Origin: a virus
Virus record (IMG/VR): IMGVR_UViG_3300032215_000830
Location: 1-22,642 of that record
DNA: 22,642 nucleotides
Reading direction: 5' to 3' (one strand)
The notes beneath the pieces are model-generated. The model made no database searches, was not told where the DNA came from, and saw only the letters and a list, made by a program, of their open reading frames with translations. Below, one piece after another: positions 14,822 to 19,461 of the stretch. Within the stretch, counting starts at the first letter, position 1. Each line of letters begins with the position of its first letter. A program made the translations under genes and the position numbers.

Positions 14822-15306
14822 TTATTTTTTGGTTTCTGAACGTTCCCTTGCCTTGTCGTGCCACATCATCAGCTCTGCTAAATCCATCTGATCGCACACA
14901 TCGGGCGACCAATGGAACACCACGGCAAGGTCTGCTATCACGTCATCTATGCTGACTGGGATTCTAGGTTCGCTTTTGCCTTGGCTCGCTCCGCTGGACT
15001 GGCGAAAAAACCCACCACCGCTGTGGCTACCTTGGTAAAGTCTGCCAAGTCCATATCCGCCAAGTCATGCTCAACGAGTACAGGGGAGACAACACGGGGG
15101 ACGAGTTTGGCAATGGCATCAAATTCTAGCTTGAGTACATCGGTCAACGATAAACCGCGCAATGACCCTGCCTTTGGCTTGCGAATAGTGATTTGACTGA
15201 TGACGGTGTCGCCACGAACAATAGGGGTGTCAAGGGTGACGGTTTCAAGGTCGGGGTTTTGCACGGTAGCGGTGGGTAAGTCTTGGGTTTGACTGTCTTT
15301 TGACAT
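14822..15306 (-). CDS. E': gpE+E' fusion made by -1 frameshift (tail assembly chaperone)
   Basis: Slipping -1 at T-TTT-TTC (15010-15004) joins the first 101 residues of gpE to a 60-residue extension ending at 14822, a 161-aa product. The extension carries VIADLAVVFHWSPDVCDQMD, then LAELMMWHDKARE, the hallmark of the P2 GpE' family (HWxP...M...EL..WH.KA). P2 uses T-TTT-TTG at the same place. Such E/E' pairs act like lambda G/GT as chaperones for the tape measure during tail assembly. Confidence 0.85.
14947..15306 (-). CDS. E: Tail assembly protein gpE
   Basis: 119 aa, the unshifted product. The beta-rich start (VTLDTPIVRGDTVISQITIR, then KPKAGSLRGLSLTDVLKLEF) and helical end (MDLADFTKVATAVVGFF) match the phage tail assembly chaperone gpE family (Phage_TAC_7 type). 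It lies between the tube gene FII and the tape measure gene T as in P2. The slippery run at 15010-15004 lies near its 3' end and yields the longer E+E' form. Confidence 0.9.
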   Translation of the reverse strand: MSKDSQTQDLPTATVQNPDLETVTLDTPIVRGDTVISQITIRKPKAGSLRGLSLTDVLKLEFDAIAKLVPRVVSPVLVEHDLADMDLADFTKVATAVVGFFASPAERAKAKANLESQSA

Positions 15307-15381: not shown

Positions 15382-15897
15382 TTACAGACCAAGCAGTGCG
15401 TTAATTTGGCTTGTTTTGTCCACACCGCCCAAAATGCAGATGCCGTTAACAAGGTCGATTTCGCATAGCTCAAAGCCGTCATCAACGACTTTTAAATAAC
15501 TGACGCCATACAGCAACTCTTGCTCGTTAATGCTGCCTAGCTCTATCTCACCGAGCTGAAACTCTTTGAGCGAGCCACGCATATAGACTTCGCGGATAAC
15601 GTGCTTGCAAATATCTTGGCGTTCATAAGCGCCGACATAGCGAATTGGTAAATCACTGACGCCACACTTTGCCAACTGTGCAAAGTGACGGCTGTCAACA
15701 CCCGTGTAGGTGATGGTGCTTTCCATCTTCTCAAAACCCATATCAAGGTCGATGTCACCAATCATACCAGCGCCGCGGTACTCCTCGGTTTTTTTGACGA
15801 TTTCGGGCAGCTCAATTGTCTTGGCGGTACCAGCGTAGCTATCGCCATCGACAAAAACGTTGTAGTTTTTGAGGACGGCTGGGAGTTGTTTTGCCAT
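15382..15897 (-). CDS. FII: Major tail tube protein gpFII
   Basis: 171 aa. LKNYNVFVDGDSYAGTAKTI, then LPEIVKKTEEYRGAGMIGDI, LDMGFEKMESTITYTG and RGSLKEFQLGEIELGS, are the standard P2 tube protein signatures. It polymerises into the rigid inner tube inside the sheath. Order sheath-tube is conserved: the C-terminal sheath fragment ends 10 nt before its start. Confidence 0.95.
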   Translation of the reverse strand: MAKQLPAVLKNYNVFVDGDSYAGTAKTIELPEIVKKTEEYRGAGMIGDIDLDMGFEKMESTITYTGVDSRHFAQLAKCGVSDLPIRYVGAYERQDICKHVIREVYMRGSLKEFQLGEIELGSINEQELLYGVSYLKVVDDGFELCEIDLVNGICILGGVDKTSQINALLGL

Positions 15898-15907
15898 TTT
15901 TTTATCC

Positions 15908-16498
15908 TTACGCCGTTTGGGCGATTAGTTTGCTAAAGTCAACCAGATAGCGGTCGGTGATACGCTGGTTCAAAAACAAGTTTTCTAGCGTTGGCACAGG
16001 GGTATAGTCGTAGTCGATATACATAATGCCTTGGCTTAAATCTTGGGGGTTGTTAATCTCTTCGTTGTACCAGCAGCTTGCACCGATGAGCCAACCTTTG
16101 GCGACGAATTGGCGTAACTTTGCGTTGATACTGTCGATGATATCACGGGCTAAAATAGGCGTGAGCGGCTTGTCAATGAATGGAAAACAGCCTGCAATGA
16201 TGGTATCAAGCAAAAATTGGGCGGTGCGTGTGGTGGTCTCAAAGGCAAATCGGGGGTCGTCGCTACAGGTGCGATTACCCCAAAAGCGAAAGCCCTCGTG
16301 CTGGATGAGACTGGTAACTTCATTGGCGTTGAGAAAGCCGACCTCAGTGTCTGGGTCTTCCAAGTCCCATGTGCGTGGGTAGCTAATGCCGTCCACCGTA
16401 CTGATAGCGACATTGCTGATTGACTTGGTAAATGAGGCTGGGTCGGTCTCATCAATTTTTGCCCGTAAGGCTAGCGCGGTTGCGATAATTGGGGTCAT
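15908..16498 (-). CDS. FI: Tail sheath protein gpFI, C-terminal fragment
   Basis: 196 aa from the ATG at 16498, which has AAGGA about 8 nt upstream. ATALALRAKIDE, then RFWGNRTCSDDPRFAFETT, IDYDYTPVPTLENL and QRITDRYLVDF match the C-terminal half of P2 gpFI, equivalent to roughly its last 200 of 396 residues. The N-terminal half is encoded separately at 17227-17769 and an unrelated ORF lies between. The start looks genuine, so this piece may be made as its own polypeptide; whether two halves build a working sheath is unknown. Its frame is the same as that of the frameshift extension after the N-terminal half. Confidence 0.9.
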   Translation of the reverse strand: MTPIIATALALRAKIDETDPASFTKSISNVAISTVDGISYPRTWDLEDPDTEVGFLNANEVTSLIQHEGFRFWGNRTCSDDPRFAFETTTRTAQFLLDTIIAGCFPFIDKPLTPILARDIIDSINAKLRQFVAKGWLIGASCWYNEEINNPQDLSQGIMYIDYDYTPVPTLENLFLNQRITDRYLVDFSKLIAQTA

Positions 16499-16508
16499 AA
16501 GTATATCC

Positions 16509-17159
16509 TTAAGCATAAATTTTAATATAGAGCATTGCATTTGCATGTAATGTGATTTTATTTTCATCACGTTCTGCTATTGCATAGTTTTTTTCGTCTA
16601 ATGCAGATATCTTGTTTGGTACTAACGGGTACAACAAATCGTAAAGACTTTCAACTGTCGTATTAACAGTAAAAGGTGCTTTTGCTTGTAATGATGCAAG
16701 TTCATTTTGAATCTGTACTTGCGACAACTGATAAATCTCAACGGCTATTTTTTTTGATGTATATGATGCCATTTCGTTTGTTACTGCCATGCCGCTAGAT
16801 TGCTCAACACCATCAACAATATTCATCATTCTAATCATCAGAAAATTATTAATGTACTCCTCGATTAAGCCAAAAGATTTCATATAACCGTAACTTAGGG
16901 TATCTGCACCCAATTGTTCTTCGTGATTATTATCGACTTTTGGGATTTCAAATGGTTCTGAATTTTGAATACGCGAAAAATACTCATCACGAATGTTACT
17001 ATGTAAAATTTTAGACATTGAAAAAAATGCTGCAATAGCTTGGGCGTCTGTAATAGTAGATGCGGTTGCCACTGGTGCGATTTCTAATACGAACGAGTCT
17101 TTTAGCACTTCAATATCATCGTATTTAATTGCAATTTTGCTAATAATTGTGCGATTCAT
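16509..17159 (-). CDS. Unknown ORF inserted within the sheath gene
   Basis: 216 aa. GAGG lies 7 nt before the ATG, and the ATG overlaps a TAA in the sheath-extension frame as TAATG. The body is helical with MKSFGLIEEYINNFLMIRMM, SYTSKKIAVEIYQLSQVQIQ and a Gln/Leu-rich helix, and an acidic start. No signal peptide, membrane segment or catalytic motif is seen, and no family is recognised. It is visibly AT-richer than the flanking sheath parts, so it was probably acquired separately. P2 carries its AT-rich moron Z/fun near this locus, between G and FI; here the insertion lies inside FI. Possible roles: immunity cargo, or a tail accessory protein. Confidence 0.75.
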   Translation of the reverse strand: MNRTIISKIAIKYDDIEVLKDSFVLEIAPVATASTITDAQAIAAFFSMSKILHSNIRDEYFSRIQNSEPFEIPKVDNNHEEQLGADTLSYGYMKSFGLIEEYINNFLMIRMMNIVDGVEQSSGMAVTNEMASYTSKKIAVEIYQLSQVQIQNELASLQAKAPFTVNTTVESLYDLLYPLVPNKISALDEKNYAIAERDENKITLHANAMLYIKIYA

Positions 17160-17236
17160 TATGCATCCTCACCTAAATAGACGTAACTTACTTTGTTTGT
17201 TGTACCACCCCCATCGCTGGGGGCAGCTACTTTCCC
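17159..17236 (-). other. Candidate programmed -1 frameshift site and sheath extension
   Basis: The N-terminal sheath ORF ends CTG-GGA-AAG-TAG. G-GGA-AAG (17236-17230) is the lambda G/GT slippery heptamer in the right phase. Six nt further (TAGCTG) a GC hairpin CCCCC-AGCGAT-GGGGG (17223-17208) follows, extensible with wobble pairs. A -1 shift adds 23 residues ending SYVYLGEDA and a TAA at 17161-17159 that overlaps the next ATG. The extension is in the same frame as the C-terminal sheath half. It could be real recoding or a simple one-base indel in a decaying gene. Confidence 0.5.
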
Positions 17237-17769
17237 AGTGGCTTACCCCACTGATTTTCAATCAAAAGCAATTCACGGTCGCCAAAGGTATCGCGATATG
17301 CCGCAATCTCAGTTTTATCAGTAATCAATGTGCCGTCATCTTTGCGTGGCGACGCATAGACAAAAGCTCGACGGCGCTTGGCAATGCTGACCAACTTGCG
17401 TACCACAGCAGGGCTATCAATCTCAGGCGCACCTAGGATTTTTGGTATTACCCCTAAACGTGATTGACAAGCGAGCAGCTCGTCTAACACATCGACGTTA
17501 TCAGCATTGCTCACACGCATGACAACCACGGTTGGGTTAGTGATGTCACGGATGGTCTGCAATGATGTTTTGAGCGTGCCTTGGGTGCCTGCTTTATCAA
17601 TATTGTCTTTGGTGATACCTGTTAGTAATACTGGGGTATCGGCTGGGTACATTGTGGCATCGGCATCGGTCGCCGTGGCGATTAAACCGATTACGCTGAT
17701 GTTGGCGTTTTGCATGGGCAAAATGCCTTGGGTGAGTTCTTGGGCGGTGATGCCGTGGTGTAAAGCCAT
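17227..17769 (-). CDS. FI: Tail sheath protein gpFI, N-terminal fragment
   Basis: 180 aa. HHGITAQELTQGILPM, then GLIATATDADATMYPADTPV, PKILGAPEIDSPAVVRKL, and AAYRDTFGDRELLLIENQWG match the N-terminal half of P2 gpFI (full length about 396). The reading frame stops at TAG (17229-17227) in the loop that normally joins the halves. A -1 frameshift at the stop would extend it by 23 residues. AAGGAG lies 6 nt before the ATG. It directly follows the fibre gene with 12 nt between, so no G-type chaperone gene is present here. Confidence 0.9.
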   Translation of the reverse strand: MALHHGITAQELTQGILPMQNANISVIGLIATATDADATMYPADTPVLLTGITKDNIDKAGTQGTLKTSLQTIRDITNPTVVVMRVSNADNVDVLDELLACQSRLGVIPKILGAPEIDSPAVVRKLVSIAKRRRAFVYASPRKDDGTLITDKTEIAAYRDTFGDRELLLIENQWGKPLGK

Positions 17770-17781
17770 GTTAGCTCCTTT

Positions 17782-19461
17782 TTATGGTTGATAAGTTAAT
17801 TTAACCGTATTGATTAAAGTGCCATCTGGTATTAGTCCGTTTCTAAAATCGTCGGCACCTGAGACTGTCGGTACGACATAGTACATCTCCCCATCTGCCT
17901 TAAGGTAGTTGGTCAATTTAAAATCCGAATAACCGTTAACAGGTGTTTGTTCTTCTATAAAAAACGCACTTGGTTCTGCTAAATCAGTAGGCACTTTAGA
18001 GATTTTTATACAGCCTTCAGCTTCCGTAAACGGGTCACATGCTTCCACGATAAACGGTGAATTATTTTCGAGAACTTTAGGTACGCATTTAATCCTGCCC
18101 CTGTCATTCGTTATGTAAATTTCAAACTTCATACCGTTGTAAGGTGGCACATCACTGACCGTATCATTAATGGTTAAACCTGCATGGATATTTTGCGTCT
18201 TACCAATAGTGGCATCAAACAAGGTAAAGCCCCAGTCAATGATGGTTTGCATATCGACATGATAATTTTCTGGCAACACGCCAACCATTAAGTTTTTGCC
18301 GTTATTGATTGTGGGTGGGTAGGTTAAATTTGCCCCATCGGATATAAAATCGCCAGCGCCTTGTTGGTTGAATCCTGAAACAGCGATAGGCACAGTCGCA
18401 TTGGCAACATCAATCCATAGATAAATAGCGCTGTCTTCATTTATTTGACTAACGCGATTTTGCCCCAGGGCATCTGAGGTGAAGTAAATATCAAAGCTTG
18501 TTGCCGTGTAATCATTTGGCAGTCTAAGCCACATACCAACACCGATTGATGGTTGGATATTATTGTGGGGTTGGTTGCCGCCTGTGGCTAGCGTCATGCC
18601 ATCGCTTTGTTCGCCTTCCCATGGTTCATCAGCCGTTGCTGCGCTGCCTGTGCCATTAACACCGCCATAACTGCCATAACCATGCTTATGACTTGGCATC
18701 TCATCAATCGTTAATTGGTGCTCGTATTCACCGAGTTGCTGCATCATACTAATATTTTTGGTAACGCCATTTTTATCAGTATGACTGCCAATACCTAGCA
18801 ATAATTGACCTTCTGAAAACTTAGTCCACTTGCCATAGCCCTCACCGTCATGCACTTCTTGGCTGTTGGCATAATTGCGAGTAGTGATTAGCAAACCACC
18901 AATAGAGACGGGTTCGATTTTGCGGTTTTTAACTAATGCAAGGTCTTGATTAACTGATTGTTGCCATGAATTAAACAAGGCTTGAAAGTCTGCAAACTCT
19001 TTGCTAATGGTGCTATTAACCCACGACTGTGTGGCTGTGATAGCGTTGGCATCAATCACAATACTGACCTGTGGGTTATCAATCTGTACCACCGCTTTGA
19101 GTCGATAATCAACCGCGGCAGTGTTGGTAGCGTCTGGTTTTTGTACCTCTGGTAGACTGCCAACCCACACCAATACGCCATCACTATCAATCAATCCAAA
19201 CTCACGAATGGTAAAACCACCCACGTCGACAGGGACGACACACACAATCTCGTACTTGTTTGGCGCGACAAGATTGACAGACTCGACCTTGCCTTGGTAA
19301 CGCTTGGCGACCAAGGTTTGTTTGTCAAGGCGTGTACTGAAGTCGACATTAACGCCTTGTCCTACCGCAAAGTCAGTAATATGCAAGGGTGTCCCACCTG
19401 CATTACTGGCGGTAGCGATTTTGGTGGCGCCAGCGTTCGTTAAGAGTAATTGATAGCTCAT
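17782..19461 (-). CDS. H: Tail fibre protein gpH-like, with collar domain
   Basis: 559 aa. Residues 1-145 match the conserved P2-type fibre N-terminus (LLTNAGATKIATASNAGGTP...VDVGGFTIREFGLIDSDGVL) that docks to the baseplate. Residues about 186-314 form a phage-collar domain (GGLLITTRNYANS, GKWTKFSEGQLLLGIG, DEMPSHKH, GGNQPHNNIQPSIGVGMWLR). Residues 320-559 are unlike known tips I recall and probably set host range. The start overlaps the stop of the previous gene as ATGA. Unusually for P2-like phages, no chaperone gene follows. Confidence 0.9.
   Translation of the reverse strand: MSYQLLLTNAGATKIATASNAGGTPLHITDFAVGQGVNVDFSTRLDKQTLVAKRYQGKVESVNLVAPNKYEIVCVVPVDVGGFTIREFGLIDSDGVLVWVGSLPEVQKPDATNTAAVDYRLKAVVQIDNPQVSIVIDANAITATQSWVNSTISKEFADFQALFNSWQQSVNQDLALVKNRKIEPVSIGGLLITTRNYANSQEVHDGEGYGKWTKFSEGQLLLGIGSHTDKNGVTKNISMMQQLGEYEHQLTIDEMPSHKHGYGSYGGVNGTGSAATADEPWEGEQSDGMTLATGGNQPHNNIQPSIGVGMWLRLPNDYTATSFDIYFTSDALGQNRVSQINEDSAIYLWIDVANATVPIAVSGFNQQGAGDFISDGANLTYPPTINNGKNLMVGVLPENYHVDMQTIIDWGFTLFDATIGKTQNIHAGLTINDTVSDVPPYNGMKFEIYITNDRGRIKCVPKVLENNSPFIVEACDPFTEAEGCIKISKVPTDLAEPSAFFIEEQTPVNGYSDFKLTNYLKADGEMYYVVPTVSGADDFRNGLIPDGTLINTVKLTYQP

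Follow-up and report, generated by a model that had tools for sequence, protein, structure and literature searches.

A conserved tail sheath encoded in two halves, with swappable genes between them and a putative -1 frameshift, in P2-like prophages of Moraxellaceae

In several phages, some copies of an abundant virion protein acquire a binding-type domain through a programmed frameshift at the end of its gene. The major tail proteins of the 936 lactococcal phages (TpeX) and of SPP1 are extended in this way (PMC6669499), and T3 and A2 have frameshifted Ig-like extensions of coat or tail proteins (PMC5009743). Contractile sheaths also have variant forms. The sheaths of types 2 and 3 carry extra, often Ig-like, domains that were proposed to aid adhesion (PMC9230969), PaBG has two sheath proteins in one phage (PMC7412058), and the subunit of the T6SS sheath is made of two chains, TssB and TssC (VipA/VipB) (PMC5807055). 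Here, we describe a clade of prophages in which two genes, both conserved, specify the N chain and the C chain of the sheath, with swappable genes in between. Like TpeX and its analogues, it appears to use frameshifting at the end of a gene to add such domains, but those systems concern tail tubes or coats encoded by one gene, whereas here a contractile sheath is concerned, and its second half is encoded separately, 3' of the cargo. The predicted two-chain subunit is shared with T6SS, which lacks phage cargo between the chains. In contrast, the sheaths of types 2 and 3 are one continuous chain, while those of the clade are two chains under putative frameshift control, and the components of PaBG are full-length paralogues, not halves. 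The open literature, with most subscription journals outside our scope, revealed no phage sheath that is split, none with a frameshift, and no diversity-generating retroelement (DGR) in a sheath gene.

The window, i.e., the whole stretch of 22,642 nucleotides analyzed here, encodes the two halves of the tail sheath gpFI on the minus strand. The N half (180 aa, 17227..17769) matches positions 21-271 of the profile phrog_23 (E 1.9e-21). The C half (196 aa, 15908..16498) matches positions 286-472 of the same profile (E 1.2e-65) and Pfam Phage_sheath_1C (PF17482) in the profile search, aligns with residues 215-381 of the R2 pyocin sheath in the PDB search, and has its own ATG with AAGGA upstream. 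The two halves together thus cover gpFI in sequence, and their PDB matches are to the R2 pyocin sheath; the single chain of about 390 aa that is typical of gpFI is replaced by two ORFs, in the window as in all 38 loci of the clade. Between the halves lies an AT-rich ORF of 216 aa (16509..17159, minus strand), with a GC content of about 34% as compared with about 48% on each side. The neighboring genes on the same strand, the tail tube FII (15382..15897; PF04985, E 1.5e-42) and a tail-collar fibre protein (17782..19461; PF12571, E 2.8e-27), are intact. In these respects our results agree with the original prediction, made from the letters of the window, which had located the three ORFs, assigned both halves to the sheath (as the alignment to homologues confirms), and noted the base composition of the insert. 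We found no relative of the 216-aa ORF in Pfam, PHROGs, PDB, phages, genomes, or viral contigs, save in the locus L081, which is not independent evidence because its sequence matches the window at 100% identity over 8.6 kb. A fold model of this ORF was discarded (pLDDT 33).

The split is a common trait of a fully supported clade of P2-like prophages of Moraxellaceae, where each of the 38 distinct loci has it; the hosts belong to Moraxella, Psychrobacter, and Acinetobacter. We searched 161 loci with both sheath halves by tblastn: where the identity of the C half was at least 62%, the halves were always apart, mostly by 0.1-3 kb, whereas the remaining loci had one chain, with 25-73 nt separating the two matches. 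Similarly, in 349 genomes of Moraxellaceae, all matches to the C half with at least 62% identity stand alone (199-229 aa), as do three at 55-58% identity, while the other sheath matches are mostly intact chains of 391-411 aa; one genome (G003) has both a split and an intact sheath. Beyond Moraxellaceae, samples of the order and of the class contained almost exclusively intact chains and no convincing split sheath. One candidate, a 214-aa open frame in G402, was judged truncated, as its match begins at base 188 of the contig. The 38 split sheaths form one clade in the tree of the C half (support 100, with a quick tree method), and both halves are under purifying selection, the N half with dN/dS of about 0.06-0.15 when the window is compared with L001, L222, and L223. 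The same split layout is found in a named GenBank phage, Bracchivirus U2F1 (MF417929, Peduoviridae), which differs from the window in its cargo and has a TTTTTTGGGAAAG slip site followed by a -1 extension of 453 aa; its record annotates separate or hypothetical genes and leaves the split unremarked. That the split is conserved and arose once in this clade is, in our view, practically certain.

The cut falls between the strand ending in REVMVVWPDF and the helix ALGLRAKID of intact sheaths. This loop tolerates insertions, since an intact Acinetobacter sheath of 517 aa from outside the clade (L204, on G179:C3) is enlarged at exactly this place by about 127 inserted residues. It represents an independent use of the same site. 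The split also has a minimal, cargo-free form with an interrupted C half (L007 / L203, on G108), apparently a decaying member of the clade.

The genes between the halves come in three layouts. In the first (22 of the 41 loci), the cargo lies in the -1 frame past the stop of the N half; in the second, it is fused in frame to the N chain and measures 77-213 aa; in the third, there is no cargo and the stop of the N half overlaps the start of the C half (L007, L092). The cargo differs from phage to phage, even between near-identical phages. For example, three loci have N halves 97-98% identical to that of the window, and two of them (L222, L225) carry a repeat protein and fibre genes while the third (L223) has a 619-aa protein with a GDSL domain. 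In L005 and L006, the -1 extensions are alike in their first part and then diverge completely. Among the domains identified are tail fibres in L001 (phrog_4176, E 6e-47; phrog_4950, E 7e-49), Hoc-like Ig domains in L002 and L003, and BspA-type LRR, laminin-G, and GDSL domains. In L001 (1990-2433) and L004 (1997-2440), the -1 extension is a tandem peptide repeat (approximately DAYQPTVKPLDITL) followed by two tail-fibre genes, and this repeat is possibly a fibre anchor. The gap in L195 (G338) encodes a sugar-nucleotide epimerase and a protein with a weak glycosyltransferase match, which could perhaps glycosylate a displayed domain.

The N half of the window ends with CCA CTG GGA AAG TAG, where the stop TAG occupies 17229-17227. 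Its sequence and its relatives point to a putative -1 slip heptamer, G GGA AAG (17230..17236, minus strand), in phase and immediately 5' of the stop; this heptamer was named highly shift-prone in E. coli in a review of frameshifting (PMC5009743). Entered exactly at GGGAAAG, the -1 frame encodes an extension of 25 aa, GKVAAPSDGGGTTNKVSYVYLGEDA (17159..17236, minus strand), whose length alone is not significant (p 0.2). Its stop TAA overlaps the ATG of the 216-aa ORF as TAATG, an arrangement that resembles that of L223. The junction GEDA described in the original prediction is at the right position, but it is not in the frame of the N half, as these residues are reached only in the -1 frame past the TAG. 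Just 3' of the slip site, the sequence folds into a hairpin (17205..17226, minus strand; core CCCCCA-GCGA-TGGGGG at 17223-17208), with -16.6 kcal/mol and a z of only -1.1, which is a possible stimulator. On this sequence evidence, a -1 frameshift probably operates in the window.

The signal is stronger in the clade. Of the 41 loci, 15 have an in-phase GGGAAAG in the final 45 nt of their N ORF; the loci are related and do not count as independent events. None of the 13,980 background positions elsewhere in the same sheath genes has one. The heptamer usually leads into a cargo frame of 110-525 aa. A slip site at the 3' end of a structural gene is thus present as in TpeX. In 20 of the 22 loci of the first layout, the -1 frame is open for 113-525 codons, which is improbable by chance and gives a long domain; the window has 25 aa only. 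In five loci (L002, L086, L162, L202, L235), the first possible start codon of the cargo frame lies 41-287 nt past the stop of the N half, and ordinary initiation would therefore lose the start of the domain. Pairs of loci that allow a comparison show the -1 frames evolving as protein-coding sequence. Three in-frame fusions (L088, L096, L195) retain the heptamer at the homologous codon, where a slip would end the chain within 3-8 codons, i.e., with reverse polarity. The pattern has exceptions that count against it: some loci of Acinetobacter show TTTTTTG or lack a clear heptamer, several of them with a strong hairpin at the stop, and in L085 the cargo frame is +1. Four loci (L090, L094, L091, L201) have a -1 cargo frame without a canonical heptamer, and in L090, L094, and L201 a strong hairpin spans the stop. 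We rejected the hairpin as a universal feature, since it is strong in only some loci, as well as the idea that larger modules are frameshifted and smaller ones fused in frame (medians 261 and 152 aa, p 0.29). These results strongly indicate that the N chain exists in two forms, short or extended at its C-terminus, by -1 slippage at GGGAAAG, and we consider it very likely that such frameshifting operates in the clade.

The best explanation of these observations is probably a conserved tail sheath made of two chains and bearing a display cassette, and it has to be weighed against other accounts. The orphan AT-rich ORF and the stop codon in the N half could suggest a tail gene that broke recently, one of the two outcomes that the original prediction had left open. 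Decay is nevertheless most improbable for a trait of single origin that extends over a whole clade, with both halves under purifying selection and the other tail genes open. The close relatives, which the original prediction envisaged as possibly all intact, are all split, and it is the more distant ones that are intact; the search that it had proposed, for the same insertion in related prophages, returned the same split with different inserts. The data thus speak for its other outcome, a new kind of split sheath with cargo, as the split is clade-wide and under selection and the cargo varies between phages. A further alternative is that a single sheath protein is restored, whether by splicing of an intein or intron or by translational bypassing of the insert. 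The 666 bp whose removal joins the frames are indeed divisible by three, but the arithmetic does not extend to an intact sheath plus an insertion, since the ATG of the C half is the same in relatives whose cargo is entirely different. Searches of the insert in Pfam and Rfam gave no intein family and no intron, the cargo is totally different between loci with no conserved insert, the C half comes with an ATG and a ribosome site of its own, and in L007 and L092 the halves overlap with nothing in between. Rejoining is hence hardly credible.

Two other accounts accept the split. One regards the gap as a mere hotspot where inserted morons are tolerated, without any connection to the sheath, in line with the epimerase and weak glycosyltransferase match of L195 and with the cargo ORF of the window, which falls in no identified family. 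We consider it improbable, given that most of the identified cargo is of the adhesin or fibre type and is linked to the N chain, either in the same frame or through a -1 shift. The other retains the two-chain sheath and dispenses with frameshifting, the cargo ORFs being separate proteins made by ordinary or coupled initiation. It fits the window and L223, which have short -1 tails with a separate cargo ORF at or just past their end, and the loci that lack the canonical heptamer. Yet the cargo frames of the five loci with late start codons are conserved and open from the slip site, and the heptamer is enriched at the end of the N half, which leaves this account rather unlikely, though the least so of the four. 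The idea that the cargo is expressed only by start/stop coupling, as proposed from the window, also conflicts with most relatives of the first layout, where the -1 signal would fuse the cargo to the N chain.

Under the preferred reading, a two-chain sheath with a display cassette, the N chain would be made short or extended and the C chain separately from its own start. The two would pair into one sheath subunit like that of intact homologues; judging from the sequences, it is highly probable that both chains are made and co-assembled. The extension would project from the sheath at the cut loop, showing adhesins or anchoring fibres along the tail, and the slip rate would set the number of subunits that bear it. 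Such display on the tail is likely. We modeled the fused N chain of L095 as a single chain, which gives no subunit context: the model has moderate confidence (pLDDT 60) and divides into the sheath part, a linker of low confidence (188-210), and a further region that folds separately, and its matches to known structures, led by the R2 pyocin sheath (Z about 9), cover only the sheath part. In the window, a slip would add the 25-aa tail and leave the ribosome at the ATG of the 216-aa ORF, which could be translated by ribosomes that have shifted, by initiation at its own SD-like AGGTGAGG, or by both. Its product would be a chain of its own, co-regulated, and may dock on the tail; that it is part of the virion is a tentative proposal.

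If this reading is correct, a highly constrained phage protein, the contractile sheath, has been permanently cut at one loop and is still under selection, and the cut loop accepts whole genes. This would be a second route to a two-chain sheath, beside TssB/TssC of T6SS, and a natural precedent for contractile tails that display domains at an adjustable density. It would also make adhesion along the shaft of the tail testable. It also calls for caution in annotation, as such sheath halves get labelled 'hypothetical'.

In Psychrobacter sp. 72-O-c, a complete DGR lies between the sheath halves (L083:422-4591). It has the VR, TR, Avd, and RT of known DGRs, and differs from them in that its target is fused to a sheath half by the -1 frame: the variable protein lies in frame -1 relative to the N chain and is accompanied by bAvd (E 4.2e-17), the TR, and the RT (PF00078, E 1.7e-15). 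In an alignment that includes diverged ends, 18 of the 39 TR adenines are changed, compared with 16 of the 116 other bases. The same contig has an identical copy (L084), and the two 8.6-kb copies are identical including the variable region. None of the homologues of this RT (L207-L220) is within a split sheath. No RT was found in the other split genomes and records that we checked (G271, G254, G338, G273, L002-L004) or seen among the ORFs listed between the halves in the window, a 22.6-kb virus record that may be a fragment. We moderately favor a broader reading, a new virion architecture in which the two-chain sheath would be a multivalent display platform, the -1 frameshift would set the fraction of subunits with an exchangeable receptor-binding module, and one lineage would have the module hypermutated by a retroelement inside the split gene. 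In another phage type, an Avd and an RT like those of L083 are directly upstream of an intact sheath (L207:220-3103). Finally, the gpE gene of the window (14947-15306) has T TTT TTC close to its end and a -1 frame open for 40 codons beyond its stop, an arrangement that resembles the E/E' frameshift of P2.
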